From the NCBI RefSeq assembly GCF_028735875.1, contig NZ_CP117834.1, positions 1,228,001 through 1,292,000 on the forward strand: a DNA stretch of 64,000 nt, in the 5' to 3' direction. Positions 37,967-54,045 of this stretch are shown piece after piece (position 1 is the stretch's first letter; every line of letters begins with the position of its first letter). The notes beneath the pieces are model-generated. The model did no database searches and was not told the origin of the DNA. It saw nothing but the letters and a program-made list of their open reading frames with translations. Source of the DNA: Shouchella hunanensis (GTDB taxonomy: Bacteria; Bacillota; Bacilli; Bacillales; Bacillaceae_D). Both the position numbers and the translations under genes were made by a program.

Positions 37967-38017
37967 ATTATAAGCGGATGTCAAAATTGTTCCATAAGTC
38001 CGTCAGTTTATCTGACA
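37967..38017 (-). promoter_or_regulatory. amtB promoter with TnrA/GlnR-type box
   Basis: On the minus strand TGTCAGATAAACTGACG (38001-38017) matches the TnrA/GlnR consensus TGTNANAWWWTMTNACA except at two positions. A TATAAT -10 is at 37967-37972, placing the box centre near -50, the position used by TnrA to activate. The -35 is weak, as usual at activated promoters. Confidence 0.65.
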
Positions 38018-38061
38018 TTCTTTCTTCCTTTTTTTGACCAACATAGGATTGGTTTTGGATA

Positions 38062-38070
38062 CATACACTA
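38062..38070 (+). promoter_or_regulatory. Sporulation -10 element (sigma-E/sigma-K) of coat gene
   Basis: CATACACTA fits both the sigma-K -10 (CATANNNTA) and the sigma-E -10 (CATACANT). It lies 41 bases before the start of the coat protein gene. Confidence 0.55.
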
Positions 38071-38111
38071 TACTCGGCTTGATCAACACATTTTGCATAG
38101 GGGGCATTTAA

Positions 38112-38750
38112 ATGATGAATCAACAACCATCAGGACACGTTCACTCTTCACAGGTAGCACCTACGTTAAACCACGGAGGACATGATTTATTCGACAGCCA
38201 CGAAATTATAGCTGGGATGATCAATGTGCTTGATCAATATATGATCTTTCGCACGTTTATGACTGATCAAGAACTTATCTCTTTACTGGATCGTCAATAT
38301 ACCTTTATTGAAAGCCAGTATAATGTTCTTGCTGAAGCGTTCTCCACTGGTCAACCACCAAGCCAGTCAACAGGTGTATATAAAATGACGCTTTCTCACG
38401 ATGTTCAGTTTGGTCTTACACCAAGTCAGCCGAAAAAGCCAAACCGAAACATTTCAGAAGTGAAAGAGGCAGGGTTGTCTGCTCATATGCTCGGTTTGAT
38501 TAAAGGACAAGCATCATTAATGGGGATGGCTGCTTCTGAAATTACGAACCCAATTGTTCGCCGAATCGTAGCAGATACGGTACCAAACTTCATCGAATTA
38601 GCCTATGAAATTTTTCTGTATCAAAATAAGCATCAGTATTATCAAGTTCCACAGCTCAACGACCGTGATGCCCAAGCTATGACAAGTGCGTATCAGCCAG
38701 TTATTGGCCAAAAGGCAACAATGCCACAGCCAAAGACACCTATACAGTAA
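38112..38750 (+). CDS. Spore coat protein, CotF-like
   Basis: 212 residues. The coat-F domain at ~25-190 contains LFDSHEIIAGMINVLDQYM and GQASLMGMAASEITNPIVRR. The N- and C-termini are Gln/Pro-rich, as in coat proteins. GGGGG ribosome site seven bases before the ATG pair. A sporulation-type -10 element supports mother-cell expression. No partner gene in the operon. Confidence 0.8.
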   Translation: MMNQQPSGHVHSSQVAPTLNHGGHDLFDSHEIIAGMINVLDQYMIFRTFMTDQELISLLDRQYTFIESQYNVLAEAFSTGQPPSQSTGVYKMTLSHDVQFGLTPSQPKKPNRNISEVKEAGLSAHMLGLIKGQASLMGMAASEITNPIVRRIVADTVPNFIELAYEIFLYQNKHQYYQVPQLNDRDAQAMTSAYQPVIGQKATMPQPKTPIQ

Positions 38751-38753
38751 TAA

Positions 38754-38790
38754 AAACAGCTGCTTTTCTAGGAAAAGCAGCTGTTTCTTT
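38754..38790. terminator. Terminator coat gene / AbrB-like gene
   Basis: AAACAGCTGCTTTTC (38754-38768) pairs perfectly with GAAAAGCAGCTGTTT (38772-38786). Confidence 0.9.
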
Positions 38791-39823
38791 ATTGTTTTAT
38801 TGGTTTCTTCGCAAACCACTTTAATAAAAAAGGTAAGGCTAGAAACAGGCCAAGCACTCGTAACATTTGCAACGTCGCCACAACAGTCGCATCGAGCTGT
38901 AATGTCGCAGCGGTAGAGGCCATTTCAGCAGCTCCTGCTGGAACAATAGCTAGTAGCGTTGTATAAAACGGAAGCGGACTTAAAAAGAAGAAGATTAAAG
39001 CCAACCCTATACTCATGAAGACATACAACAAAAGCGTCACCGCACTAGCTCCACCAATTCGCTTTAATTCTTTCACTGTTTTCCGGTCAAACCTCATTCC
39101 GATCAACGAACCAATTAGCACTTGTGCCATCCCCATTACAACGTTTGGCATAGCATAATCTGGAACAACAAGTTGATGAGCAGTAAAGCCAAACAGAATC
39201 GCAACAAACATCGGCGCACCTGGAAAAGAAAGAAAACGACTAAGAAAGAACACCAGAATAGCTAAACCGAAGGCGAGTCCAATTAATCCTCCATCAGTCC
39301 ACAGCCCTTGTGGCTCTTCTATAATAGGTACAGCGTTAGCCCTTGAACCAACGCCAACGATCAACGGCACCGAAAACACAAATAAAGTAATGCGCGCTGT
39401 ATGAAATGCTGCAACAATTCGTTGATCAGCTTGGTACCGTTCACTAAGCGCAATGACTTCTGATGCTCCTCCTGGTAAACAACAAAAGAAAGCTGTATTC
39501 CCTTCAAGCTTCGTCCATCTACCAAACAGCTTCCCAAGAGCAATACCACCAATAAGCGTGAGTACTAATGATAAAAGGAAAGCTGGTAATAGTGTTCGAT
39601 ATGCCCAGACCTCTTCTGGAACAACCATAAACCCAATTACCACACCAACAAGAGCAAGAGATAACGTAAACAACTCGCTCCGAAAGATGAGCTTATCTAT
39701 GAAAAAAGACCAAACCATTCCTGTTAACAGGGCACCAAGCAGCCATCCAGCTGGTAGCCCAGCCCATTGAAAAAGCCAACCGATTAAAAAAGATGTTGTA
39801 AAAAAAAGCAGCTTACTCCCCAT
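38789..39823 (-). CDS. AbrB-type membrane protein (two-repeat AbrB family)
   Basis: 344 residues, nine or ten membrane helices in two repeats. Family segments: [37 protein letters not shown] and [21 protein letters not shown]. The family has no relation to the B. subtilis AbrB DNA-binding protein and is of unknown transport function. The ATG at 39823 follows AAAGGA by four bases and lies inside the end of ung, so both are co-expressed. Confidence 0.85.
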
Positions 39824-40514
39824 TTGATCCTTTCCCCTCAATCGTTAATGGTAGCTGCCAATCAATGGGGGACTCCTCTATTGACACAAGCCACTCATTA
39901 ATTTTTGAGAATGGGCGACTTCCAAAAAAGCCTCTATGGGCCGAAAATGGACTCGGGTGTGGCGATTGGATAATAAAGTGCTTGCTCTCATCAATTAACG
40001 CTAATTTTGCTTGTGCATGCTTTCCCCACAGTACAAAAGCTACTGGTTTCTCACGTTTGTTTAGTGTAGCAATGACGTTATTTGTAAAGACTTCCCACCC
40101 TTTCCCTTGGTGAGAACCTGGTTGTTTTTGACGAACCGAGAGCACGGTATTCAATAACAACACGCCTTGATTGGCCCAGGACTCTAGAAAACCGTGTTCG
40201 GGTGGTTGACAACCTATATCCTCTTCTAGCTCTTTATACATATTTTTTAAAGAAGGGGGTGTTTTCACGTCAGGCTTAACGGAAAAGCTTAATCCATGAG
40301 CCTGATTTGGTCCATGGTAAGGATCTTGACCAAGAATAACCACCTTTACGTCTTTATAAGGAGTAAGATGAAGCGCATTAAATAAATCATGCATAGGTGG
40401 ATACACCACTTCATTTGCATATTCGTGCTTCAAAAATTCCCGTAGCTGAACATAATACTCTTTTGAAAACTCTTGACCGACATAGTCGTGCCAATCGTTA
40501 CGTAAAATCGTCAT
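39813..40514 (-). CDS. ung: Uracil-DNA glycosylase
   Basis: 233 residues, family 1. The water-activating Asp64 is in [18 protein letters not shown] and the minor-groove loop in [18 protein letters not shown]. It removes uracil from DNA. Position near ywdI/ywdK and pdxK agrees with B. subtilis. The end overlaps the AbrB-like gene by 11 bases. Confidence 0.97.
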
Positions 40515-40583
40515 CTGTTTACTCCTTCCCTATCCAATTCACTTCAATCATACGCCTCTCCGCATATGTTGACAAACAGAAGA

Positions 40584-40605
40584 GAACTGACGCGATCCGC
40601 CAGTT
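40584..40605 (-). terminator. yjiH-like gene terminator
   Basis: On the minus strand GAACTGGCG pairs with CGTCAGTTC (one mismatch), followed by TCTTCTGTTTG. Confidence 0.55.
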
Positions 40606-40612
40606 CCCTGTC

Positions 40613-41965
40613 TTATAAAAGCAAATGCCCCATTAAAACAATAATTGGTAACGTAATAATGGTTCGAACCAAGAAGATCAACACAGCATCTAAAAATGTA
40701 ATTGGAATCTTAGAGGCAACAAGAACGCCACCTGTTTCCGACATGTAAATGAGCTGTGACACAGATAATGTTGCGATAACAAACAAGGTTAATTCACTTG
40801 TAATGCCAAAGGACTCTGCCAAGATAGCAGGCAGTAACATATCAGCAAACCCAATTAAAAGGGTTTGGCTGGCTGCAGCCGCTTCTGGTATGTTCATCCA
40901 TTCCAAAACCGGTACGAACGGTACTGCTAACCATTCAAAGACTGGCGTGAAGTTAGCAACACCTGCCGCAATCGTACCAATTGCCATGACAACAGGCAGG
41001 ACTCCAAACCATAAATCAAAGACCGTTTTGAAGCCGGTTTGAAGATTCTTTCCTTGTTTAAAGCTTTCTTCAGCACGTAAGGATGCCTGAGCAAAGCCAT
41101 TTTTTATGACGTTTTTTTCTTTTGGCTCTTCTTGACCTTCGCTCCCATCAATATACGTATTGGCTTTACGCGATAACGGTGGAATCCTTGGCGTAATCAC
41201 TGCCGCTACAAAGCCAGCAATAAATAGTGTTAAAAAGAATTGCCAGAACAAATGAGAAATCCCTAATCGACCTAATATCGAAATACTAAACGTAATGGAA
41301 ACAACAGAAAAGGCAGAAGCAACGATAGCAGCCTCTCTCGCTGTATACTTTCCTGCTTCGTATTGGTTGTTGGACATCATTATACCTACTGTACCGTCTC
41401 CAACCCAAGAAGCCATAGAATCAATGGAAGCCCGACCTGGTAAACGGAACAGCGGTCTCATAACATTCTTTAACAATGAGCCGAAGAATTCCATTAATCC
41501 AAAATTCAATAGCAATGGTAAAAGCAAGCCTGCAAACAAAAAGATTGAGAATAGGAACGGTAGTAAGTCAGTTAACAATAATTGCCCTGTATCTTCCGAA
41601 ATTAAGAATTCGGGACCAACGTTCATAAACACAAGGATAGCTAGTATAGCACCTACGATTCGAACGACAATCCAAACAGGTGTTGTCGCAAAGATGCTTA
41701 CCCAGAAAGATTCCGTTTGGCTTTGTTTCTTCACACGAGTGGCAATGATGGAAACAATAGCTGTCACAATGAGGAGAATGGTCACAATAATTGTAATGAC
41801 CTCAACCGATAGCAAGTCCATCAAAAAATCAGAAGCAAACATGACAGGTAGTTGAACGGATCTACCATCCTCTGTATCAATGGGGATTGGGGTCATAAAT
41901 AGAAAAATTCCAAGTATAGACGGAATGATAAACATTAATGCATTTTTAACTGTTACGTTATTCAT
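40613..41965 (-). CDS. YjiH family membrane protein with nucleoside-recognition (Gate) domain
   Basis: 450 residues, ten or more helices. The Gate-type motif is in ASIDSMASWVGDGTVGIMMS, and the C-terminal half has SQLIYMSETGGVLVASK. These proteins are relatives of nucleoside transporters and SpmA/SpmB, but the substrate is unknown. A soluble charged loop lies at ~265-300. GGAGGAC ribosome site. Single gene. Confidence 0.82.
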   Translation of the reverse strand: MNNVTVKNALMFIIPSILGIFLFMTPIPIDTEDGRSVQLPVMFASDFLMDLLSVEVITIIVTILLIVTAIVSIIATRVKKQSQTESFWVSIFATTPVWIVVRIVGAILAILVFMNVGPEFLISEDTGQLLLTDLLPFLFSIFLFAGLLLPLLLNFGLMEFFGSLLKNVMRPLFRLPGRASIDSMASWVGDGTVGIMMSNNQYEAGKYTAREAAIVASAFSVVSITFSISILGRLGISHLFWQFFLTLFIAGFVAAVITPRIPPLSRKANTYIDGSEGQEEPKEKNVIKNGFAQASLRAEESFKQGKNLQTGFKTVFDLWFGVLPVVMAIGTIAAGVANFTPVFEWLAVPFVPVLEWMNIPEAAAASQTLLIGFADMLLPAILAESFGITSELTLFVIATLSVSQLIYMSETGGVLVASKIPITFLDAVLIFLVRTIITLPIIVLMGHLLL

Positions 41966-42025
41966 AAATAGTCCTCCGACCGGATAATAATAAGCAATAA
42001 TGAATCATTATACAGTGTCTTTTCT

Positions 42026-43414
42026 TTAAGCGCTATGGGAAATCTCAAGATTTAAGTTTTCTTTTTCTTCGCTTTCTTCTGTCGATGTCTTTTTTAATAA
42101 TTTTGTCACGCTTGAAAGCTCTTCCACCGCTATCTCAATCGTCTTTACTTTTTTAATGACTTCTTCCATTATACCTACTTGTTCACTTGCTAACGTAACA
42201 CCATTTCTTGATTCTTCCCCACTTGCTTCACTCGCTTGTTTTAAAGAATCAATTTGCTCTACTAACGCCAGTGTGCTAAACGCAATCGATTGAGTGGAAG
42301 AAGAGACAGAATAAATATCACGATTTAAGCCGTTGCACGCTAAATGAATTTCCCCCAGTATTGTTTCCACTTCTGTATTAGCTGTAAGCCCATGTTGAAT
42401 ACCTTCATTTCCACGGCTTACTTCATCTAGTACAGTTTGAACGTCGCTTTGCACCGTATGAATAACGGTTCCCATTTGACTTGCCGCTACTTGAGATTCA
42501 GCCGCTAACTTTCTCACTTCCTCAGCTACTACGGCGAATCCCCTTCCTTGTTCTCCTGCATGCGCTGCTTCAATTTCTGCATTCAATGCAAGTAAATTTG
42601 TTTGATTCGCTATTGCAGAGACGGTTTGTACCGTTTCATATAAACGCTTTGAACGCTCATACAGTTGATGAACCACTTCAAATGTGCGTTTATTATTTTC
42701 TGCAATCGCTCCCATGTAAGAGGTGGAATCATTTGCCTTCTTGTTTCCATCCTCAACAAGGTTGCGCACCGATTCTGTCGCATTTTCAGCAGCTGCTAAC
42801 GCGACTGTAATTTGTTCCACTTTTTCTGAAAGGTCATCTGTGGAACGAACACTTTCTTGCGACGTTACCACTTGAGCTTGCACCGCACTCATCATTCTTT
42901 GATTTCCCTTTTCAATGGAAGCCGCAGATTGTAACGTTTTGTTAGATTGGTCTGTCAGGTAAGTGGTAGAAGAAATAAGAGTTTGCGCTACAGTCGACGC
43001 TCTTTCCATTGTTCTTTTTAATTCTTCCGTCATCTGGTTAAACGCATGTGTAAAATGGGCAAATTCATCCTCTCCAACCACTGGAAGAGGCTTGTGTGAG
43101 AAATCACCTGTTGCGAGTTGATTGGCTCTTTTTACTAATCGCTTTAATGGAATAAGAACAATACGAGCTTGGTGTCTTGCTATCCATGCACCGATGATGA
43201 TGAACACGACAAGTACGATCCAAATGAACAGTAACTGTGCTGATAACGATTGCTGCAACGCAGTTAATTGCTCAACGTGTTCACTCCCTACTTCCCCCGA
43301 AAGTTGCTCTACCGTTTGGTTCGTTCTTCTCATAAAAAATGTAACAAGTGCGCCAAACAAGATCATGAAGCCTGCTATCACACTGTACCCTTTCACTAAT
43401 TTCTTCTGTATCAA
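42026..43414 (-). CDS. Methyl-accepting chemotaxis protein with minimal sensor
   Basis: 462 residues: helix at ~10-28, an extracellular part of only about 35 residues, a second helix at ~60-78, HAMP at ~82-135, then the signalling domain with the tip sequence [20 protein letters not shown] and [10 protein letters not shown]. Without an extracellular ligand domain it may sense through the membrane or HAMP, or relay another signal. Single gene far from other chemotaxis genes. Confidence 0.9.
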
Positions 43415-43552
43415 GACGTCTCCTCCTTAATCTACTGTTCTTCTCCTATATATCGGAAAATTGATCGATCCTTTCCATATGAGTAACATACTTTCCCTGT
43501 CGTTTTTTTTCTACTATAATAGACACAACAGAGATAAAGGAGAGACTAAATC

Positions 43553-44362
43553 ATGAAGCGATATAAAGCGTTAACGATTGCAGGATCGGATACAAGCGGT
43601 GGAGCAGGAATTCAAGCCGACTTAAAAACGTTCCAAGAGTTACAAGTATACGGAATGAACGCCCTTACGACCATTGTTGCTCAAAATCCATTTGAAGGCT
43701 GGGCACATGAAGTCTTCCCACAAGATCCCGCTATTGTTGCTAAACAAATTGATACGGTGTTGAAAGGCATTGGCGTAGATGCAGTCAAAACAGGAATGCT
43801 CGGTTCGATTGAGATTATCAACATCGTCGCTGAAAAAGTGGACCAATACGGCGTTGATCAACTCGTTGTTGATCCAGTAATGGTATGTAAAGGTGCTGAT
43901 GAGGCGTTAAATCCAGAAACGGATGCATGCTTACGAGACGTGCTTGTACCAAAAGCATTTGTGGTAACACCGAATTTATTTGAAGCGACACAATTATCTG
44001 GTGTAGCTATTTCTTCTCTTGAAGATATGAAAACCGCAGCAAAAGCCATTCATGGGCTTGGTGCTAAGCATGTGGTCATTAAAGGCGGTAGTAAGCTTGA
44101 ATCCAATCAAGCTGTTGATGTATGGTACGACGGTGAAGACTTCCACCTACTCGAATCAGATGAAATTAACACAACGTATACCCACGGTGCAGGCTGCACA
44201 TTCGCAGCTGCGATCGCCGCTTCATTAGCGAAAGGACACGATGTAAAAGAAGCGATTTATACAGCAAAAGCTTTCGTTACAGCTGCTATTAAACATGGTA
44301 GCCGATTAAATGACTACGTTGGCTCCGTTGCCCACGGTGCTTATAACGTTGAAAATAAGTAA
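43553..44362 (+). CDS. pdxK: Pyridoxine/pyridoxal/pyridoxamine kinase (ThiD-like)
   Basis: 269 residues, ribokinase fold. TIAGSDTSGGAGIQADLKTF binds the substrate; VVDPVMVCKGADEAL and the C-terminal THGAGCTFAAAIAA contain the Cys that marks the B. subtilis-type PdxK. It phosphorylates B6 vitamers and may also act on hydroxymethylpyrimidine. In B. subtilis this gene also lies near ung and ywdI. GGAGAG ribosome site; TATAAT about 25 bases upstream. Confidence 0.92.
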   Translation: MKRYKALTIAGSDTSGGAGIQADLKTFQELQVYGMNALTTIVAQNPFEGWAHEVFPQDPAIVAKQIDTVLKGIGVDAVKTGMLGSIEIINIVAEKVDQYGVDQLVVDPVMVCKGADEALNPETDACLRDVLVPKAFVVTPNLFEATQLSGVAISSLEDMKTAAKAIHGLGAKHVVIKGGSKLESNQAVDVWYDGEDFHLLESDEINTTYTHGAGCTFAAAIAASLAKGHDVKEAIYTAKAFVTAAIKHGSRLNDYVGSVAHGAYNVENK

Positions 44363-44368
44363 GAACAG

Positions 44369-44404
44369 AAGAACGCATGATGACACGATTATGCGTTCTT
44401 TTCT
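44369..44404. terminator. Terminator pdxK / hutH
   Basis: AAGAACGCAT (44369-44378) pairs with ATGCGTTCTT (44391-44400), followed by TTCTTCC. It reaches into the last codons of the converging hutH. Confidence 0.75.
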
Positions 44405-45876
44405 TCCTTAAGCCACGTAGCAAGGGCCTCAATATCCTTGGCAAACATACGATCTTTTGTAATGGCGGAAACGATCTTCCTCATTTGAACGTGCCACCCA
44501 CTGGTAGCTGTCGCCATTTTCTCCGTACCTCGATAAGAAGTCGCCTCCATTGCGCAAATTGCTTCAATCGCATAAACATGCCTCACATTCGCAACGATTT
44601 CCAATGCATGACGAGCTCCAATTGTCCCCATACTCACATGGTCTTCTTGATTTCCCGAGGATGGGATTGAATCGACACTTGCAGGATGGGAGAGCGTTTT
44701 GTTCTCCGACACCAAGGCTGCCGCCACATACTGCATAATCATCGCACCAGACTGCAACCCAGGCTCTGGACTTAAAAATGGAGGCAAATCACTAAGCTGC
44801 GGATTCACTAACCGTTCAATTCGTCGTTCAGAAATATTCCCAAGCTCTGCCATCGCAATTGCCATAAAATCCATTGCCAATGCAATCGGCTGACCATGAA
44901 AATTCCCTCCTGAAATGACTTTTTTTCCACCTTCAAAAATAAGAGGATTATCAGTTGCTGCATTCATTTCAATGATGAGCTTCTCTTTTACATAGCCTAG
45001 AGTCTGCCATGTTGCCCCATGTACTTGCGGAATACAGCGTAATGAATAGGCGTCTTGAACCCGCTTTTCCCCTTGAGTGGTCACTAACTGACTATCCTTT
45101 AAATACGCTCTTATACGAGCTGCACAAGCCATTTGCTCTGGATACCCTCTAGCTCTATGAATAGATTCATCAAACGCATCCATAATTCCTTCTAATCCTT
45201 CTAAAGTTAAAGAAGCGATCTTCTCTGCATCATAAGCTAGCTTTTCTGCTTCTAAGTACGCTATAACTCCTGTTGCAGTCATTGCTTGAGTACCATTAAT
45301 GAGCGCCAATCCTTCTTTTGCTTGTAAACGAATCGGTGCCATACCAAGCATTTGCAAGACCTCAAGAGTCGGTCTCTTTACACCTCTATACCACACGTCC
45401 CCTTCACCAATTAATGGCAGGGATAAATGAGCGAGCGGTGCTAAATCCCCACTAGCTCCAAGGGAACCTTTCTGAGGCACGCACGGATAGACATCCATAT
45501 TAACAAAATCAAGGAGCCGCTGTATCACCTCTATTCGAATGCCAGAGTACCCTTTTACAAGTGCATTTGCCCGTAACAGCATCATCGTCTTTGTTACAGC
45601 CTTCTCAAAGAACGGACCGACTCCACACGCATGGGACACTAACAAATTACGTTGTAACTCTTCTACATCCTCTTTGTCAATTCGGACATCACTAAACTTA
45701 CCAAAACCAGTATTGATTCCGTAAACCGTCCGTTGTTGATCCACAATTTCCTCGACAGCCGCCCGACTGTTATCAATGGATGGGATACATGAAGAATCAA
45801 TCGCCACTTGTTCGCTTTGCCGTAAAACCTTTTGCACATCTTCCATTCCTAATGTTTTTCCAGTTAAATAAATCAT
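44389..45876 (-). CDS. hutH: Histidine ammonia-lyase
   Basis: 495 residues. The Ala141-Ser142-Gly143 triad ([17 protein letters not shown]) forms the MIO cofactor; other marks are [13 protein letters not shown] and [10 protein letters not shown]. It turns histidine into urocanate and ammonia. The other hut genes (hutU, hutI, hutG, hutM, hutP) are not in the window, which is unusual for Bacillus. The start follows GAGGGGTGAAG. Upstream lie a strong promoter, a leader peptide and a terminator, so expression is probably attenuated. Confidence 0.95.
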
Positions 45877-45902
45877 AGCTTCACCCCTCTAGTTCATTAA
45901 AG

Positions 45903-45956
45903 CTATAAAAAAGAAGCTGCCCGCTGAAATGAACTTCATTTCAAAGCGAACAGCTC
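45903..45956 (-). terminator. Attenuator terminator in the hutH leader
   Basis: On the minus strand GAGCTGTTCGCT (5' arm) pairs with AGCGGGCAGCTTC (3' arm), extended by the perfect inner stem GAAATG/CATTTC, and is followed by TTCTTTTTTAT. It lies between the promoter and hutH. Its 5' arm can instead pair with GAACAG just upstream (45957-45962) to form GAACAG-GAG-CTGTTC, a competing hairpin. Confidence 0.8.
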
Positions 45957-45997
45957 CTGTTCCTTATAACGAGATACCGACAAGATCGAACATTCAT
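45941..45997 (-). CDS. Leader peptide of hutH, 18 aa
   Basis: An 18-codon frame, MNVRSCRYLVIRNRSCSL, with ATG at 45997 eight bases after GGAG. Its final codons overlap the 5' arms of both the terminator and the competing hairpin. This is the classical layout of translation-dependent attenuation. It contains no His codons; Arg (4), Cys (2) and Ser (3) are frequent. The inducing signal is unknown. Confidence 0.6.
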   Translation of the reverse strand: MNVRSCRYLVIRNRSCSL

Positions 45998-46032
45998 GTC
46001 TTTCACTCCATTTCGATCATTCTAATAACTAA

Positions 46033-46061
46033 AGTGTAGGGTTTCATGCTACAATTGTCAA
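46033..46061 (-). promoter_or_regulatory. hutH promoter, overlapping a divergent promoter
   Basis: On the minus strand TTGACA (46056-46061), 17 bases, TACACT (46033-46038): a near-consensus sigma-A promoter. On the plus strand TGC-TACAAT (46048-46056) inside the same spacer is an extended -10 for the membrane protein gene at 46089. Confidence 0.75.
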
Positions 46062-46088
46062 CGACTGACATGAAAGGGAGAACAACTG

Positions 46089-46916
46089 ATGACTCATCCT
46101 AAAAGACGAATTGCACAGCATCATCCACACCAATTAACAAAACAAATTCTTTCAATTGATTCTGCTTTACTCATTGCCTCTGCGACAATCCTCGGTTACT
46201 TAGTTGCCTACCGTTATCAAATGGGGCAATTTGACTATTACCAAATCAATGAAATCCTTTTTGGACAAATTTATTTAAATCATATCATCATCGCCATGAC
46301 TGCGGTTTTTATTTTTATTATTGCCATTCTGGTCATTCAAATTGTACTAAACTGGTATTATAAACAGCTACCTTATTTTTGGTCAAAAGTAGCGCGACAC
46401 ATTTTTCCTTGGTTTCTTTTTTATCCAGCTATTGCGTTTTTGTACGACCAATCGATCTTTTACTTTATTCCTTTTGCCATTGCTGCTTATTATTTCATCG
46501 TTCCTTTATTTTATGGACGCATAAAGAATTATAAAACCATTTTTTTAGAAAAATTAATCATCCCATATGACGATTGGAATTGGCGCGATTATGTGCCAGC
46601 CTTTATAAAAGATACAAAACTAGAGAAACAGCTCTTATTTAGCATCGTTATTCTAATCCTTCTCCCGCAACTTTCTTTTTTTATTGGTCATTATCTAGCT
46701 AGTAATCAGACAGACTACTTGTTATTTAATCATGAAGAGAGAACTCATATCGTTTTGACGACAACGAACGATTCTCTTATTGTCGCACCTTTTAATGCAG
46801 AGGACCTTACATTCGAGCAAGAATACACCATTGTTCCGTATAACGGCGTATCAGCGTCTTTGTATTCGTTTGATCCTGTCTCCTTACCATCCGGAATTAA
46901 GCCTCAGAGCGAATAA
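46089..46916 (+). CDS. Hypothetical membrane protein, 275 aa
   Basis: A basic, His-rich N-terminus (MTHPKRRIAQHHPHQL), about five membrane helices between ~25 and ~205, then a ~65-residue extracellular domain beginning LASNQTDYLLFNHEERTHIV. AAAGGGAG ribosome site, eight bases. I do not recognise the family. It is divergent from hutH with an overlapping promoter and ends at its own terminator. Confidence 0.75.
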   Translation: MTHPKRRIAQHHPHQLTKQILSIDSALLIASATILGYLVAYRYQMGQFDYYQINEILFGQIYLNHIIIAMTAVFIFIIAILVIQIVLNWYYKQLPYFWSKVARHIFPWFLFYPAIAFLYDQSIFYFIPFAIAAYYFIVPLFYGRIKNYKTIFLEKLIIPYDDWNWRDYVPAFIKDTKLEKQLLFSIVILILLPQLSFFIGHYLASNQTDYLLFNHEERTHIVLTTTNDSLIVAPFNAEDLTFEQEYTIVPYNGVSASLYSFDPVSLPSGIKPQSE

Positions 46917-46917
46917 A

Positions 46918-46946
46918 AAAACCACTGACTCGTGTCAGTGGTTTCG
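46918..46946. terminator. Terminator membrane gene / glnA
   Basis: ACCACTGAC (46921-46929) and GTCAGTGGT (46934-46942) form a perfect stem, with A- and T-rich flanks. Confidence 0.88.
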
Positions 46947-46956
46947 TTAGGCTGTC

Positions 46957-48315
46957 TTAAAACTTGCTTTGGTAAGCTGTAAGCTCCCATGCATGAACAC
47001 TTGTGCGGAAATCATCCCACTCGCCACGTTTTAACTCAATATACTCGCCAAACGCATGCTCACCAAATGTTTCGCGCCCAATAGAACCTGCTTCGAAGCG
47101 GTCGATAGCTGATTCCAAGCTTGTTGGTAGGTTTTCAATCCCACGCTCACTAATTTCCGCTAGTGACATGTTAAAAATATCTGCGTCAACAGAAGCCGGA
47201 CATTCTTTTTCATTTTCCACACCGTCTAAACCAGCTGCAGCCACAACGGCAAATGCAAGATATGGATTTGCAGATGGATCTGGACAACGAATTTCTACTC
47301 TCGTCCCTGCTCCTCTTGTCGCTGGAATACGCACAAGCGCTGAACGGTTTGAAGCAGACCAAGCAATATAACAAGGCGCTTCGTAACCAGGAACAAGACG
47401 CTTATAGGAGTTAACAAGCGGATTTGTCACCGCAACAAAGTCTTTTACGTTATCAAGCAATCCAGCAATAAAGTGATACGCTGTTTTGGATAGTGCGATC
47501 TTGTCGTCTTCGTTATAGAAGCTGTTCTCTTGCTTCTCGATATCAAATAGAGACATGTTCACGTGCATACCATTTCCGTTTTCCCCGCCAAGTGGTTTTG
47601 GCATAAACGTTGCATGTAGACCGAATTGCTTTGCTACTGTTTTTACGACCCATTTATAAGTTGTCGCTGCATCGGCAGAGCCAAGAGCGTCAGAATATTT
47701 AAAATTAATTTCGTGCTGTCCAATCGCTACTTCGTGGTGAGACGCTTCAATTGTGAAGCCCATCATACGTAGTGCTTTATAGATTGCTAGTCGTACTTTC
47801 TCCCCATCATCTTTAGGTGACGGTTCAAAATAACCGCCGACATCCTGTGTGCGAAGCGTTGGTTGACCAAATTCGTCTGTATCAAATAAGAAAAACTCTA
47901 GCTCAGGCCCGACACTGATTGAATATCCTTTGTCTGCTGCACGCTTAACCGTTTTCTTTAAAATGTTACGAGGATCTCCATCAAAATCAGAGCCATCAGG
48001 CTTTTTTACGCTACACAAAAATCTCGCTTCTGAATAGCCTTCTTCCTCTGTCCAAGGTAACACAGCAAATGTCGATAAATCAGGGTTTAAATAAAGATCT
48101 GACTGATTGATTGGTGTGAAACCCGTAATTGAAGAGCCATCAAACATCGTTTGCCCGTTTACAGCTTGATCCAACTGATCCGCTGTAATCGTTACATGCT
48201 TTAGCATCCCTTCAATATCAACGAATTGCATATGAAGTAGCTCCACATTCTTCTTTTCAATTGTTTCCCGAATCGTCTCTAACAAACTTTCTCTCGTCGG
48301 CGCTTGAGTTGCCAT
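46957..48315 (-). CDS. glnA: Glutamine synthetase type I (GSI-alpha-like)
   Basis: 452 residues. Beta-grasp N-domain with MFDGSSITGF, then the catalytic barrel: GPELEFFLFD, EASHHEVAIGQHEINFKY, HATFMPKPLGGENGNGMH, and NSYKRLVPGYEAP with the active-site glutamate flap. It makes glutamine from glutamate, NH3 and ATP. The start is ATG 48315, nine bases after GGGGAG. There is no glnR upstream, so it is probably an extra copy next to a glnRA operon elsewhere. The residue aligned with B. subtilis Arg62 (feedback and GlnR/TnrA signalling) is Pro68 here. Confidence 0.94.
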   Translation of the reverse strand: MATQAPTRESLLETIRETIEKKNVELLHMQFVDIEGMLKHVTITADQLDQAVNGQTMFDGSSITGFTPINQSDLYLNPDLSTFAVLPWTEEEGYSEARFLCSVKKPDGSDFDGDPRNILKKTVKRAADKGYSISVGPELEFFLFDTDEFGQPTLRTQDVGGYFEPSPKDDGEKVRLAIYKALRMMGFTIEASHHEVAIGQHEINFKYSDALGSADAATTYKWVVKTVAKQFGLHATFMPKPLGGENGNGMHVNMSLFDIEKQENSFYNEDDKIALSKTAYHFIAGLLDNVKDFVAVTNPLVNSYKRLVPGYEAPCYIAWSASNRSALVRIPATRGAGTRVEIRCPDPSANPYLAFAVVAAAGLDGVENEKECPASVDADIFNMSLAEISERGIENLPTSLESAIDRFEAGSIGRETFGEHAFGEYIELKRGEWDDFRTSVHAWELTAYQSKF

Positions 48316-48404
48316 CTCGAAACACTCCCCTAGATTAGTAGATGTTATGCTCATCTTTTTCTTACTACTACTCTATGACGGATATGACATGCGCGCAATC
48401 GTTT

Positions 48405-48421
48405 TGTTAGATAATCTGACA
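48405..48421. promoter_or_regulatory. GlnR/TnrA box upstream of glnA
   Basis: TGTTAGATAATCTGACA matches the consensus TGTNANAWWWTMTNACA at every position. It is centred about 98 bases before the glnA start codon; a possible -10 (CATAGA, minus strand, 48372-48377) would put it near -50. Confidence 0.75.
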
Positions 48422-48547
48422 CACTATTCACTCTGTTAAGATAAAGGATCGCTATTTAAAAAATTTATTCAATGCCCGTCGTTAACGTTTTATTTATACA
48501 ATTTCAAAGCTCGTGAACCTATGAATAAAGCCGAACGTTTCAAAAGT

Positions 48548-48641
48548 AAAAAATGCGGAAGCTTGCCTCGGAGGTACGGGTAAGCCGTCGCTTCGCTAGT
48601 CTTCCCTCGCCCCTTTTTCCGCAGGCGTCACCGCATTTTTT
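48548..48641. repeat. Palindromic intergenic repeat element (Bacillaceae REP-like)
   Basis: A 94-bp GC-rich block in AT-rich surroundings, bounded by AAAAAATGCGG and CCGCATTTTTT and containing complementary internal segments. Such folded, G/C-rich elements with this style of sequence occur in many copies between genes in Bacillaceae. Only one copy is in the window. A conceptual reading frame across it is not a gene. Confidence 0.6.
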
Positions 48642-48735
48642 GCTTCAAGTTAAAACAAACAATGAAGAAATAAATATAAATAATCGTTCGTTCAACTCAG
48701 TTTTATCTACTTATAAATTTGACTCCATTGCATTC

Positions 48736-48794
48736 AAAAAACGCTATAAGCCATTGGATTTTCAAAAAATCACCCGAGCTTATAGCGCTTTTTT
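48736..48794 (-). terminator. Terminator of the DUF4064 gene
   Basis: AACGCTATAAGC pairs with GCTTATAGCGCTT, with A/T runs on both flanks and a loop of about 26 bases. It lies seven bases after the DUF4064 stop codon. Confidence 0.75.
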
Positions 48795-48800
48795 CAAATA

Positions 48801-49280
48801 TTAAACTTGATCTACTGGCTCTAACGGTTCTTTTGGCTTACGCACAAGCGCCATGATACCTGCAATTAAATAGAGGATTAATGGCACTGCAGGAAGAATA
48901 AACGCTACTAATAAGAAGCTCGTCGCTCCATAAAAAATCGCCGATCCTAAAAACAAAATACTAGCAACGATTGGCTTCTTTTTCACCATCACGACCGCTA
49001 CAATACCAGCGATTGCCGGGATAAGAGATCCTGCCGTTAACAATCCGAAGTTCACCATTTCAATCATTTCTAACATTTCATTTGCTTGCTCTTCATTTAA
49101 TGGGTCTTGACCAGGTTCTAGTAACTCACTATTTTCATTTGTTGCTTCTAAAACAATTTCCTCAAATAATCCCTGATCAGCACCAACTGCTAACGCACCC
49201 AAAAATAATGTACCTAGAAAAAACAAAACAATGCCTATAATACCAAGAACTCTTTCGCCTGTTCGTTTAATCACTTTCAT
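48801..49280 (-). CDS. DUF4064 family membrane protein
   Basis: 159 residues, four membrane helices; starts MKVIKRTGERVLGIIGIVL, with an acidic extracellular loop (NENSELLEPGQDPLNEEQAN) between helices one and two. The layout fits DUF4064. Function unknown. AAAGGAGAG ribosome site. Single gene between glnA and cshA. Confidence 0.78.
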   Translation of the reverse strand: MKVIKRTGERVLGIIGIVLFFLGTLFLGALAVGADQGLFEEIVLEATNENSELLEPGQDPLNEEQANEMLEMIEMVNFGLLTAGSLIPAIAGIVAVVMVKKKPIVASILFLGSAIFYGATSFLLVAFILPAVPLILYLIAGIMALVRKPKEPLEPVDQV

Positions 49281-49400
49281 CTCTCCTTTTTCAATCCCCT
49301 TGCTTATGTATGATACAAATTATACTTTTATGATCGTATCATAATTCTTCAATTGTTTACAGAAAAAACCTGCCGATAAACGACAGGTTTTTTCACACTG

Positions 49401-50888
49401 TTAAGACGAGCGCTTCGCCCATTGGCGTTTTTGACCGCCTTTTGGCTGATCGCTTCTGCTACGCTTCTGATTAAAAGCGTTGCGACGATCTTTGCTTCGT
49501 CCATCACGACGACGGTTTCCACCGTTTCCACCGTTTCCACCACGACCATCATGACGCTTTTTCGAACGAAGCGGTGCTTCACTTGTTAGTGCTACAGGCG
49601 TTTCATTCGGCTCTTTTGTTAAAAGCTTCAGTGCTGCTGATAAGGCAGTCACTGCATCTGTTTCTTGTAATATTTCTTTTGCTTCCACACGGTAATGGTC
49701 CTGATCGCCTTCCGTCGTTAACTCACGAAGCTGGTTGAGTACAAGTTGTTTCTGTCCAGCTAACGCTTCATCATACGTAGGTTTCGGACGCGCCGTCATA
49801 CGCTTTTTCGAAACTTTTTCAATTAACTTCACGTGGTCACGCTCTGGCTTCGTTGAAAGGGTAATCGCAATACCTGATCTCCCAGCACGACCTGTACGTC
49901 CAATTCTGTGTACGTAGCTCTCAGGATCCTGTGGTAAATCAAAGTTAAATACGTGTGTTACGCCGCTAATATCGAGTCCACGTGCAGCCACATCTGTTGC
50001 AACTAAGATGTCAATTAAGCCACTCTTAAATTTACGCAAGACGCTGTTACGCTTCGCTTGATTTAAATCACCATGTAAGCCCTCTGCACGGTAGCCACGC
50101 TTGATAAGTGCTTCTGAAAGCTCATCTACACGACGCTTCGTACGACCAAAAACGATTGATAGTTCAGGTGTTTCTAAGTCAAGTAAACGACAGAACACAT
50201 CGAACTTCTCACGCTCGTGCACTTCAACATACTGCTGAGCAATGTTTTCCATTGTTACTTCTTTTGCTTTAACCGCAATACGTTTCGGGTTTTTCATAAA
50301 TTTGCTTGCTAGTGACTCCATACGGCGAGGCATTGTCGCTGAAAACAGAAGCGTTTGTCTTGTATCTTGTGGCGTTTCCGCTAAGATCGTTTCAATATCT
50401 TCAATGAAGCCCATGTTTAGCATTTCGTCTGCTTCGTCAAGCACAACCGTCTCAATCGTTTGCAAACGAACCGTACCTCTACGCATATGGTCCATTAAAC
50501 GTCCTGGCGTTGCAACAATGACATGCGGCTTTGCTTTTAATGCGCGAATTTGCTTCCCAAAATCTTCTCCACCGTATACAACAACGGTACGAACCCCTTT
50601 TTCACGTCCAAACTGGCGAACAGACTGTTCTACTTGGTTCGCAAGTTCACGAGTAGGTGCTAGCACAAGTCCTTGTAAAACTGGTTGCGATGCATCAATA
50701 CGATCCACCATCGGAATTCCGAATGCGCCTGTCTTTCCTGTTCCGGTTTGCGCTTGCCCGATGACGTCCTCACCGTCTTTTACAAGTTCTATTGTTTGCT
50801 GTTGAATAGGCGTAGGCTCTGTGAAGCCCATATTTGTGATGGCTTGAACAACACGTGTGTCCAGACCAAATTGATCAAACTGTGTCAA
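49401..50888 (-). CDS. cshA: DEAD-box ATP-dependent RNA helicase (CshA-type)
   Basis: 495 residues. Motifs: Q motif [42 protein letters not shown], and the C-terminal [15 protein letters not shown] and [10 protein letters not shown]. From ~435 a Gly/Asn/Arg-rich RNA-binding tail follows. CshA works in the RNA degradosome and in ribosome assembly at low temperature. TTG start ten bases after GAGGAG. The 5' untranslated region (~175 bases) has a long hairpin. Confidence 0.95.
49515..49541. repeat. 9-bp tandem repeat inside cshA
   Basis: Three exact copies of GTTTCCACC, encoding a Gly-Gly-Asn repeat in the RNA-binding tail of the helicase. Copy-number change would keep the frame. Confidence 0.8.
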
Positions 50889-50939
50889 GTGTTAAAAACT
50901 CCTCATATTTTTAAATTTAAGCGCCTTAAACGCATCGAA

Positions 50940-51000
50940 AAGGCTGTCTTGATGCAAAAAGCCAGTGAAGTCGGCTCGCTTTGAACATCGAGACAGCCTT
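50940..51000 (-). other. Long hairpin in the cshA 5' untranslated region
   Basis: AAGGCTGTCTTGATG (50940-50954) pairs with CATCGAGACAGCCTT (50986-51000) with one mismatch; an inner AGCC/GGCT stem is possible. The transcript continues with only TTTTCG, so it may be a folding or stability element instead of a terminator. Confidence 0.6.
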
Positions 51001-51067
51001 AAAGCTCTCTTGATTGCTTAAAATCTACAACTATACATCATAGGCGCTCATCTGTACTCAAGCAAAT

Positions 51068-51096
51068 ATCTTACCATACTATTTAAATATCCGCAA
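51068..51096 (-). promoter_or_regulatory. cshA promoter
   Basis: On the minus strand TTGCGG (51091-51096), a 17-base spacer ending in TGG, and TAAGAT (51068-51073): an extended -10 sigma-A promoter. Upstream to the bdbD terminator I see nothing further. Confidence 0.6.
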
Positions 51097-51301
51097 TAGC
51101 TGCTTTCCTTTTAACAGTCAACATTCATCCACTGACTGACTTACGTATCGCTCGTACCAGCGGTCCCTACACTTAGTTTAACCAATTTAAAAAAATAATA
51201 ACACGGTTTTTTCTGCCCAATGGCTACCCATACATCTTACGACCAGCATGGACTTTACCACATTCGCCGCCTCTTGCTGCAGTTACCAACTGCGTCCGCT
51301 C

Positions 51302-51336
51302 ATAAAAGAAAGCATGCGCTACGGCAGCGCATGCTT
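51302..51336 (-). terminator. Terminator of the thiol-disulfide operon
   Basis: AAGCATGCGCT (51310-51320) pairs perfectly with AGCGCATGCTT (51326-51336); TTCTTTTATG follows on the minus strand. Confidence 0.85.
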
Positions 51337-51345
51337 ATTATGTTC

Positions 51346-51819
51346 TTATGAACTAGGGACTTCTTCACCATTTAAAAAGGCTCTGAATGTCTCTGGCGGC
51401 TGGTTTCCAACAACACGACGGACTTCTTCACCATTTTCAAACGCAATTAACGTAGGCGTTGATTGGATGTTATACGTTGCTGAATCGTATTCTAGCACGT
51501 TGTATTGGTCAACCGTTATCTCTTCATCACCTGCAACATCCATTAAAACCGGTGTCGCTTCTTTACAATAGCTACACACAGGAGAAAAGAAATAAACAAT
51601 GGCATCTTCGCCATTTGCAAGTTTTTCTTCTAAATCGTCCGGCATAATAATATTTTGATAGTTTGGATCATCAAGCTGATCAATCGTTGCTGAATCCAAA
51701 TCATCTGTGTCGTACTGTGTATTATTTTCAAGCTGCTGACTTTGCCCCATATTCTGTATCACAATCAAAATAATAAAAACGGCAACAACAGCGCCACCAA
51801 TCCAAAGTAATTTCTTCAC
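51346..51819 (-). CDS. Membrane-anchored thioredoxin-like protein (BdbA/BdbD-like)
   Basis: 157 residues: one N-terminal helix (LLWIGGAVVAVFIILIVIQ), an acidic linker, then a thioredoxin fold with the active site CSYC in YFFSPVCSYCKEATPVL and the cis-Pro in IQSTPTLIAF. At this length it is a thioredoxin-type partner, shorter than the DsbA-type BdbD. It probably forms disulfides in exported proteins, reoxidised by the BdbC-like protein whose gene overlaps by four bases. Confidence 0.85.
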   Translation of the reverse strand: MKKLLWIGGAVVAVFIILIVIQNMGQSQQLENNTQYDTDDLDSATIDQLDDPNYQNIIMPDDLEEKLANGEDAIVYFFSPVCSYCKEATPVLMDVAGDEEITVDQYNVLEYDSATYNIQSTPTLIAFENGEEVRRVVGNQPPETFRAFLNGEEVPSS

Positions 51820-52250
51820 GCAACTTCCTCCTTACGCTTTTTAATCGTGTATAGACTTGTAATAAAAATAAGAATAAATGCGGTTCCTGCAAGAAATGGA
51901 ATCGTAATAAATCCTAACCAGTTTATATATTCTCCTGAACAAGAGACAAGGCCACAACCAAGCACATCATCTTCATTTACCGGAAGCTTTTGAATAGCGT
52001 AATGGTAAATAGAAATGACCATACCAATTCCTGATAAAATAGCTGAATAGATGGCGACGCCTGTATCTTTACGAATAATACCGACTCCAATTAGAAGAAC
52101 AAGTGGATACATAAAAATTCGCTGGTACCAACAAAGCGCACAAGGCTCGAATCCTTTAATTTCAGAAAAATAAAGCGATCCAAGTGTTGCGACGAGCGAT
52201 ACAAGCCATGCAAACAAAAGACTGTTTTCAATCTTCTTACTCACAAACAT
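51816..52250 (-). CDS. bdbC: Disulfide bond formation protein BdbC/DsbB-like
   Basis: 144 residues, four membrane helices. Two cysteine pairs are visible: CALCWYQRIFMYPL and a second pair in CGLVSCSGEYINWLG. It reoxidises the thioredoxin-like partner and passes electrons to menaquinone. The ATG at 52250 follows GGAGG closely; a GTG two codons later is an alternative, while the longer frame to 52292 overlaps the ribosome site. Confidence 0.9.
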   Translation of the reverse strand: MFVSKKIENSLLFAWLVSLVATLGSLYFSEIKGFEPCALCWYQRIFMYPLVLLIGVGIIRKDTGVAIYSAILSGIGMVISIYHYAIQKLPVNEDDVLGCGLVSCSGEYINWLGFITIPFLAGTAFILIFITSLYTIKKRKEEVA

Positions 52251-52430
52251 TTCGCCTCCCACGAACCAAACTTTCGTACAATTGTACTCCAATTAAAGCT
52301 ACTATAACATGTCAATATCTCGAACATTCGATTAGAATTCTCTTTCCTCTCCTGTTTTTCTTCTGTTTCATGTCTAAAAATTGCCAGACTGGTCAATTGT
52401 AATAAGAGAAAAAACTTTGGAGGCTCGAAT

Positions 52431-53948
52431 ATGAGTGAAATGAAACAACCATTAACATCCATTTGGCAACTGTCTTCTCACGATAAGCCTTACCCCCATT
52501 TAACCCAAGATATCGACGTTGATATCGCTATTGTCGGCGGTGGTATAACCGGTTTAACCTCAGCTTATTTACTTGCTGAATCTGGAAAACAAGTGGCGGT
52601 TCTAGATGCCACATCATTCGGACGAGGTACCACAGGTCATAGCACAGCCAAGTTAACCGTTCAACACGATTTTATTTACGATGAACTTCTTTCTCATGTA
52701 GGAAAAGAAAAAGCACAGCAATACTACCAATCTCAAAACGATGCACTTGCTTACGTACGTAAGCTTGTGAAAGACAAGCAAATAGAGTGCGGATTCTCAG
52801 ATGAAGACACCTACCTTTATGCAACCACACATCACGGCGAACACCGGTTAAAGCGTGAAAAAAAGGCATATGAACAGTTAGCCATCCCACACGAATGGGT
52901 GACAGAACTACCAATCAATCTTACCATACGTGCAGCTTTAAAAGTACCAAATCAAGCGCAGTTTCACCCACTCGCATACATATCCTTCCTATGCGATGAG
53001 TTAAACAAAAAAGGTGCCCAACTGTTTGAACACACCGTTTGTCAAAAAGTGAGTCATGACAACGGTTCCGCTATCGTACACACGAAAGACGGTCATACGG
53101 TCACTGCCAAAAAAGTCATTGCTGCTACACATTTTCCGTTCATTGATGGCGGCGGGCTTTATATGACACGATTAAAAGCGGACCGCTCATACGTTGTTGC
53201 TGGCACAACGAGTGAAGCTTGGGCTGGTGGCATGTACCTGAGTGCTGAACAGCCAAAACGATCGCTTCGTAGCGCAGAAATGAATGGAAAAACCTACATT
53301 CTAGTAGGAGGGGATCACCACAAAGCCGGACAAGGAATGGATGCTCGAAATCATTACGACGCCTTGCGCACTTTTGCAGATGAACAATTTAGCAATTTTA
53401 CAGCCGAACAGGAGTGGTCTGCACAGGATTTAACGACTCTAGATAATATTCCATACATTGGACCACTCTCCTCCTTACAAAAGAATGTATTTATCGCAAC
53501 TGGCTATCGAAAATGGGGGATGACAGGTGGCATATGCGCAGCACAAGTACTCACTGATTTAATTGTCGATGGAAATAGCCTGTATTCAGACTTATACAAA
53601 CCAATGCGCTTCCATTCCGACCCAAGCATTAAACATTTTCTGACTGAAAACGCAGACGTTGCCAAACACTTGATACAAGGGAAAGTACAAAATGATTATG
53701 AAGACGTCACTGAACTAGAAAATGGTCAAGGAGCAGTTGTTAAACACGACGGCAAACGAGCTGGAGCGTTTAAAGATGAGCGAGGGAACCTTCACCTAGT
53801 TGATACAACTTGTACCCATATGGGGTGCGAATGCAACTGGAATCATGCCGACCTCACATGGGATTGCCCATGCCACGGCTCCCGCTTTTCCTATAAAGGA
53901 GAGGTCATTGAAGGCCCCGCAAAGGAACCACTTAAAAAACTAGATTAA
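52431..53948 (+). CDS. FAD-dependent oxidoreductase with C-terminal Rieske domain (YhfW-like)
   Basis: 505 residues. Residues 1-~400 are a DAO-type FAD enzyme (DIAIVGGGITGLTSAYLLAE; GRGTTGHSTAK), then a Rieske [2Fe-2S] domain at ~420-505 with CTHMGC and CPCHGSRFS. The same architecture is found in B. subtilis YhfW. The substrate is unknown; amine or amino-acid oxidation is a guess from the fold. Single gene with a TTGGAGG ribosome site and a terminator. Confidence 0.88.
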   Translation: MSEMKQPLTSIWQLSSHDKPYPHLTQDIDVDIAIVGGGITGLTSAYLLAESGKQVAVLDATSFGRGTTGHSTAKLTVQHDFIYDELLSHVGKEKAQQYYQSQNDALAYVRKLVKDKQIECGFSDEDTYLYATTHHGEHRLKREKKAYEQLAIPHEWVTELPINLTIRAALKVPNQAQFHPLAYISFLCDELNKKGAQLFEHTVCQKVSHDNGSAIVHTKDGHTVTAKKVIAATHFPFIDGGGLYMTRLKADRSYVVAGTTSEAWAGGMYLSAEQPKRSLRSAEMNGKTYILVGGDHHKAGQGMDARNHYDALRTFADEQFSNFTAEQEWSAQDLTTLDNIPYIGPLSSLQKNVFIATGYRKWGMTGGICAAQVLTDLIVDGNSLYSDLYKPMRFHSDPSIKHFLTENADVAKHLIQGKVQNDYEDVTELENGQGAVVKHDGKRAGAFKDERGNLHLVDTTCTHMGCECNWNHADLTWDCPCHGSRFSYKGEVIEGPAKEPLKKLD

Positions 53949-53980
53949 GCTGTGTTGCCATAAGCACACAGTTTTTTCTT
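53947..53980 (+). terminator. Terminator of the FAD/Rieske gene
   Basis: AAGCTGTGT pairs with ACACAGTTT (one G-U), followed by TTTCTTTTTT. Confidence 0.75.
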
Positions 53981-54045
53981 TTTTGCTTTTATTTACAGCC
54001 AAAGAAGGGTATGGAAAACTACAACTAAAAAGGAAGGTGTTCTAA

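Follow-up and report, generated by a model that had tools for sequence, protein, structure and literature searches.

The hut operon of Bacillus is controlled by HutP-dependent antitermination, and no leader peptide is known to be involved. In Shouchella hunanensis, hutH is preceded by a small open reading frame (ORF) that ends inside a predicted transcription terminator, and the genome has no match to HutP, which raises the question of how transcription into hutH is controlled at this locus. A sequence-only reading of the window, that is, the whole stretch of 64,000 nucleotides that was analysed, had proposed a ribosome-controlled attenuator, in which two alternative hairpins compete and the leader peptide senses something other than histidine. 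The analysis presented here favours, with a probability of about 0.6, a transcription attenuator that is gated by translation and that stands where relatives have a HutP-controlled one; we are less sure that this attenuator responds to translation competence instead of being a fixed bypass.

The hutH locus and its leader

The gene hutH (44389-45876, minus strand) encodes a histidine ammonia-lyase of 495 amino acids, whose residues 9-466 match PF00221 with an E value of 1.3e-195; it is the sole match to this aromatic amino acid lyase family in the 4.06-Mb genome. Its 5' neighbour (46089-46916, plus strand) is divergent and its 3' neighbour (43553-44362) convergent, and the hairpin described below therefore serves the hutH transcript. 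The divergent gene encodes a protein of 275 amino acids without a Pfam match, and 28 bp separate its start from the -35 box of hutH. A urocanase gene is found in a separate cluster of the genome (L055, G000:C1:1946500-1957500), behind another ORF, presumably hutI, and the regulator divergent from this cluster is one that we take to be of the LacI type. Shouchella miscanthi AK13 (L031) has a base-identical hutH leader, and its HutH differs at a single one of the 495 residues. A search of the genome_contigs collection gave seven loci.

All elements of the leader lie on the minus strand. The predicted promoter TTGACA-17-TACACT (46033-46061) has its -35 box at 46061-46056 and its -10 box at 46038-46033, followed by a GGAG Shine-Dalgarno sequence (46006-46009; -10.8 kcal/mol when paired with the 16S end) and the leader ORF MNVRSCRYLVIRNRSCSL* of 18 codons (45941-45997). 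The last codons of this ORF and its stop codon lie within the 5' arm of a terminator hairpin of -27.1 kcal/mol (45912-45958), whose T run (TTTTTT, 45905-45911) marks the predicted 3' end of a short RNA. The hutH Shine-Dalgarno sequence GAGGGGTG follows at 45882-45889. The fold of the 150-nt leader is more stable than expected from its own shuffles (z -3.73; one of 200 shuffles was as good). A simple scan listed 24 promoter-like sites compared to 25.8 in shuffled sequence, hence no excess, and did not list the window hairpin at 45958-45912 because its stem is bulged. The promoter call therefore stands on conservation in the genus, where the -35 box, the spacer piece CAATTG and the -10 box recur 5' of hutH, and the hairpin call on its predicted fold and on base pairs that have changed on both sides within the genus. 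Promoter, ORF with its own ribosome binding site and overlap between ORF and terminator are thus present as the sequence-only reading had described them. Its statement that hutP, T-box and histidine codons are lacking is likewise borne out: HutP (PF09021) gave no match in the window genome, with B. subtilis as positive control; no Rfam family, be it T-box, riboswitch or other, reached the gathering score in 38000-54000 of the window; and the leader ORF contains no histidine codon.

Leaders of the genus Shouchella

HutP is missing from 12 of the 13 genomes of the genus, the window's included; the exception is G007. All 11 genus genomes that have hutH but lack HutP carry an ORF that is preceded by a Shine-Dalgarno sequence and runs into the hairpin. 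These ORFs differ in sequence, in length (18 to 42 codons) and in their ends: the ORF of the window species has 18 codons, those of G003 and G005 have 20, and those of G001, G006 and G011 have 35 to 42, pass the hairpin and stop near the hutH Shine-Dalgarno sequence; the ORF of G001 starts with TTG. With the best start, the hairpin sequence TTGAAA is read as Leu-Lys in the leaders L002, L003, L004, L005 and L007; it is not read in this way in L001 and L006, in both of which the ORF stops in the hairpin. A 12-nt insertion that distinguishes L007 from L009 keeps the frame. The sequence of the leader peptide is thus unconserved even inside the genus, and what is kept is the Shine-Dalgarno sequence, the start codon and a frame that stays open until it has entered the hairpin. 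Conservation of the peptide had been set beforehand as a check on the sequence-only reading; it holds for the presence and the position of the peptide and fails for its sequence.

The hairpin itself is well preserved. In seven genus rows, all nine basal pairs are kept, and four of these pairs have changed on both sides. The genus alignment had put the 3' arms out of register; the pair changes were therefore counted by a base-anchored script, with the register set by hand.

Survey of the order and beyond

The order was sampled with 397 genomes; hutH is present in 251 of them at an E value of 1e-100 and HutP in 192, and comparison of the two lists leaves 60 with hutH but no HutP. Leaders from 56 of these 60 genomes were counted; G071 and G375 (contig edges), G399 (place unlisted) and G023 were left out. 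G023, which stands outside the counts, has a hairpin, no adjoining hutP motif and no visible ORF into the hairpin. Five genus members lacking HutP were added, together with G029 and L034, which were judged by the missing adjacent hutP alone. This gave 64 leaders from 63 loci, as G057 was entered twice. A terminator of at most -15 kcal/mol that ends 20-90 nt before hutH was found in 49 of the 64 leaders, which form 39 clusters; the 15 other leaders include cases in which hutH lies close behind another gene and cases of a stand-alone hutH without a terminator.

The start codon was picked as the one with the best Shine-Dalgarno duplex within 100 nt before the hairpin, irrespective of frame, and the null came from 300 dinucleotide shuffles of the sequence upstream of the hairpin; the terminator bounds of L003, L067 and L070 had been trimmed by hand before the count. 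An ORF like that of the window, open into the hairpin, was present in 32 of the 39 clusters without hutP, compared to a shuffle mean of 11.7 and a maximum of 19. With an ATG start and a duplex of at most -6 kcal/mol, 25 clusters remained compared to 2.3 (maximum 7), and with a stop codon inside the hairpin in addition, 20 compared to 1.2 (maximum 6); the combination of Shine-Dalgarno sequence, start codon and frame into the hairpin is thus found far above the level of shuffled sequence. Seven clusters lack the ORF (L062, L063, L092, L095, L096, L100 and L112), and two of the 32 are doubtful (L064 and L108, with no clear promoter and another gene close by on the 5' side). When 40 leaders had been examined before this count, 33 had frame 0 open, compared to 8 and 21 for the other two frames, the frame with 8 being handicapped because ATGA contains TGA. 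The 32 ORFs stop inside the hairpin (at least 6 nt in) in 25 cases and past it in seven, and they use all three stop codons (12 TGA, 11 TAA and 8 TAG; L085 has none). In L085 (G266) and L093 (G068), the leader ORF extends beyond the terminator and continues in frame into hutH without a stop codon.

A sample of the class gave 164 hits, from which 39 leaders of genomes outside the order were fetched by hand. A HutP motif adjoined hutH in 14 of these, 16 had neither motif nor terminator (among them g144, presumably Staphylococcus, as we assume from a hutH near the contig start), and nine had a terminator without adjacent hutP; outside the order, 16 of the 25 leaders without adjacent hutP thus have no terminator. 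The script opened an ORF into the hairpin in six of the nine, of which five were counted (L179, L193, L194, L195 and L199); the sixth, L169, is doubtful: it starts with TTG, 29 nt ahead of a hairpin that is weak.

A single predicted hairpin and no support for a codon sensor

The sequence-only reading had described an attenuator with two alternative hairpins, which would correspond to a classical attenuator that works by codon sensing or by an arrest peptide. A competing hairpin of 6 bp (GAACAG-GAG-CTGTTC) can indeed be drawn between the terminator arm and GAACAG (45957-45962). However, compared to shuffles of the sequence upstream of the terminator in the window, its pairing with the 5' arm of the terminator proved to be ordinary (z +0.28 for pairing, +0.17 for the fold), and in the sister species S. 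oshimensis (G003), an extra base breaks the pairing partner (GAATCAG); GAACAG was thus rejected as an antiterminator. Nor did an alternative hairpin of the his/trp type find support across the 39 leader clusters: the mean z was +0.52, with a standard error of 0.16 on the assumption of independent clusters, and none fell below -2, so that upstream sequences pair with the 5' arm slightly less than their shuffles do. What we see in the predicted folds is a single hairpin and not two states.

The peptides tell a similar story. They share no common sequence across clusters, and a Pfam scan of eight of them gave no match. Residues were counted in 35 ORFs, with L064 and L108 excluded and the five from outside the order included. 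Histidine accounts for 26 of 579 residues in frame; this exceeds the 17.5 expected from base composition (p 0.034), but the difference from the other frames, with 30 of 1041, is not significant (p 0.12), and 17 of the 35 ORFs have no histidine codon before or at the hairpin edge. A role of histidine codons as the sensor had appeared possible at first look (5.2% vs 2.6% in one other frame) and was dropped after this fuller count. A histidine codon run as in his/trp-type attenuators is absent from the window ORF, and the class-wide histidine excess is insignificant against the other frames. Arginine is more frequent than in the other frames (p 0.012, uncorrected) and cysteine is not raised, and sensing through the frequent arginine, cysteine and serine codons, as had been suggested from the window alone, finds no backing in peptides whose sequence is unconserved. 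A classical attenuator therefore appears very improbable: it can call on the drawable hairpin and on the histidine and arginine values, but arm pairing is at chance level, the histidine signal is lost against the other frames, no peptide sequence is shared and the choice of stop codon is free. Of the proposed ribosome-controlled attenuator for hutH, the ORF that overlaps a terminator without HutP, T-box or histidine run is retained, while the second hairpin and codon sensing fall away.

A probable route from HutP to a leader ORF

At 18 distinct hutP loci (19 of 20 hutP rows gave a distance), 22-71 nt separate the stop codon of hutP from the terminator, and 14 of the 18 distances are 22-28 nt. 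With hutP ending no nearer than 22 nt to the terminator, termination at these loci would be left to HutP. In one genus (g25), G053 with hutP and G101 without it align from upstream of the promoter through the Shine-Dalgarno sequence to the first hutP codons, where the start regions read MLKHERD in G053 and MRMHEKN in G101, which then continues without the hutP body. The terminators of both genomes are alike by eye; the aligner placed that of G101 within hutP. G101 and G053 form a pair in the hutH tree (support 93), and both group with G343, which also has hutP (99). G101 is thus nested among members of its genus that have hutP, which points to a loss of hutP in G101.

Traces of HutP were also sought in the peptides themselves, by comparing 28 leader peptides with six HutP N-termini, with 100 shuffles each. 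The leader ORF L081 (G210) resembles the HutP N-terminus with a score of 40, compared to a shuffle maximum of 34, and L065 scored 31 compared to 29, so that these two beat all 100 shuffles. The scores of L003, L069 and L107, which were reached by 4, 5 and 8 of their 100 shuffles, are suggestive, and the other 23 show no likeness to HutP; for the Shouchella leader L001, 46 of 100 shuffles were as good. From these similarities, the leader ORF would seem to be a stump of hutP in at least one or two cases, and a HutP attenuator has probably become translation-gated in more than one lineage; the ORFs of other lineages, Shouchella included, may have the same origin. A quick tree built from 89 hutH proteins requires at least ten changes between the hutP-adjacent state and the state with an ORF in the hairpin, and 11 changes, four of them forced by well-supported branches, between the ORF state and all others; these numbers are provisional, as is the direction of the changes. 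L159 was scored as lacking hutP: its genome has hutP, but this hutH copy has a leader ORF and no adjoining hutP. G261, a genome with hutP, has a second hutH copy (L121) with no hutP beside it, and the leader ORF of this copy ends in the terminator.

These relatives also raise the possibility that another RNA-binding antiterminator acts on the leaders in place of HutP and that the ORFs are incidental. Such a protein could be missed by the Pfam model, and HutP itself sets the example. The motif searches covered 31 leaders, after eight of the 39 clusters had been taken out by hand. Spaced NAG triplets, which we take to be the type of site bound by HutP, were found in none of the 31, the window included, with the pattern used (null 2.1). 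As no Rfam family was found in the window region either, and as the ORFs would be left unexplained, we consider a protein antiterminator improbable.

Proposed gating by translation

The leaders show the layout expected of translation-gated attenuation, namely an ORF with a ribosome binding site that ends in or past the hairpin, and one hairpin with no rival structure. That the ORF is translated and that its translation matters for hutH is what we infer, with somewhat better than even confidence, from this layout. RNA polymerase would first transcribe the leader ORF and then the single strong terminator. A ribosome that reaches the end of the ORF inside the 5' arm would cover this arm and block the hairpin, leading to readthrough into hutH; if no ribosome is there, or if it comes too late or stalls upstream, the hairpin would form and transcription would stop near 45905. 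The ribosome itself would thus be the antiterminator, and the peptide sequence would be irrelevant as long as the ribosome reaches the hairpin. The arrangement would have arisen when the hutP body was lost and the leftover start region ran into the terminator. The signal, if there is any, would most likely be translation competence or amino-acid supply.

Gating by translation is not new in itself, because pil1 of Streptococcus gallolyticus and pyrBI of E. coli are precedents. Like the hutH leaders, pil1 is described as having a ribosome binding site and a leader ORF ahead of one intrinsic terminator (PMC3894217). Expression is reported to be mainly low when 28 nt or more separate the leader stop codon from the hairpin that follows and mainly high, through readthrough, when the stop codon lies just before, in or past the hairpin; a start-codon mutant is low, and chloramphenicol lowers the high variant to wild type (PMC3894217). 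The systems differ in that GCAGA repeats switch the ORF length of pil1 and thereby cause phase variation of the pilus (PMC3894217), whereas the hutH leaders have the reaching form fixed, precede a catabolic gene, occur in many genera and stand in place of HutP. For the E. coli terminator tR2, suppression is reported if a stop codon is close and full activity beyond about 27-30 nt (PMC4824070). Measured by these two yardsticks, hutP leaders and ORF leaders would fall on opposite sides, the many hutP distances of 22-28 nt being near the border. The pyrBI leader is alike in its ORF through the terminator and in readthrough by ribosome-polymerase coupling without a codon run (as described in PMC4824070), and differs in polymerase pausing that is governed by UTP. 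The HutP attenuator of Bacillus hut shares the position before hutH and, in g25, promoter, start region and terminator with the ORF leaders; it differs by the presence of hutP and by a stop codon that stays at least 22 nt before the hairpin, which the ORF leaders enter. Leader-peptide attenuators of Firmicutes his biosynthesis genes and hisS likewise combine an ORF and a terminator at a histidine-metabolism gene (PMC9413887, PMC2965389), but are described as having stretches of histidine codons, with three to five in a row and antiterminators in PMC9413887; neither such stretches nor antiterminators are found in the hutH leader. PMC9413887 mentions hutH once, for a regulator of Oscillibacter, and the main text of PMC2965389 does not contain 'hut'. 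Neither a leader ORF at hutH nor a replacement of HutP by an ORF was found in titles and abstract openings of the open-access literature.

In B. subtilis and other Bacillota, RNA polymerase is reported to leave the ribosomes behind (PMC13323073), and a catch-up of the ribosome within the first 100 bp is described as unlikely unless the polymerase pauses (PMC4824070). The main difficulty for gating by translation is thus timing, the polymerase being ahead of the ribosome. TTNTTT, presumably the NusG pause motif and the pause signal scanned for, occurs in 8 of the 31 leaders compared to a null of 8.7; this motif shows no excess, and a pause signal like that of pyrBI was not found with it. Other points that speak against gating are the seven clusters that lack the ORF and the two doubtful ones, the leaders that have neither hutP nor a terminator, the many hutP stop codons near the distance at which ribosomes still interfere in E. 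coli, and the missing likeness of the Shouchella ORF to HutP.

It is also conceivable that the ORF merely cancels an old terminator after the loss of hutP and that the promoter alone sets hutH expression. Such a bypass without regulation would fit an ORF whose sequence is free to vary and whose constant feature is that it reaches the hairpin, and CodY-like boxes with at most three mismatches occur in 7 of the 31 leaders (null 1.1, maximum 4), so that promoter control exists in some of them. A relic hairpin should decay, however, and the genus keeps it, with both sides changed in four of nine pairs and with its T run; the hairpin is also strong in all 39 clusters, though these were chosen for a strong terminator. 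We regard the bypass as unlikely, but as the most serious of the competing explanations. The CodY-like boxes belong to L066, L067, L069, L071, L085, L089 and L096; the window has none, its best site having six mismatches.

Returning to the translation-gated attenuator, we tentatively suggest a wider reading, which we hold to be rather less probable than gating itself: Bacilli might repeatedly have turned the histidine-sensing HutP attenuator into a ribosome-based one by shrinking hutP to its start region, and the product would sense translation, hutH being read only while ribosomes keep pace. As these organisms are thought to transcribe far ahead of translation, such gating would need a coupling device in the first ~120 nt of the message. 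If this is true, there is a simple way for a ribosome to take over the role of a regulatory protein, in which the gene body is lost, the start codon is kept and the frame enters the terminator. Furthermore, natural coupling of transcription and translation at leaders would be widespread in Bacillota, where uncoupling is held to be the rule, and dozens of natural leaders would be at hand for measuring when the ribosome catches RNA polymerase. For annotation, it would mean that leader ORFs without conserved sequence may act by position alone.

Further elements of the hutH leaders

Some smaller elements recur in the leaders. Between terminator and hutH, the window has CTTTA, a few bases and TAAAG or its relic (CTTTAATGAACTAGAGG; 45885-45899), a small inverted repeat that is common to many hutH leaders with or without hutP. 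The promoter spacer within 46033-46061 is alike in several Shouchella leaders (TTGACAATTGnnnCATG), beyond what a plain promoter needs, and is possibly an operator. Right after the -10 box, AGTTATTAG or a near-match is present in 5 of the 31 leaders without hutP (46023-46031 in the window; L061, L117, L118 and L122), compared to a null of 0.6 with a maximum of 4, and, by eye, a similar sequence is also found 5' of some hutP genes.
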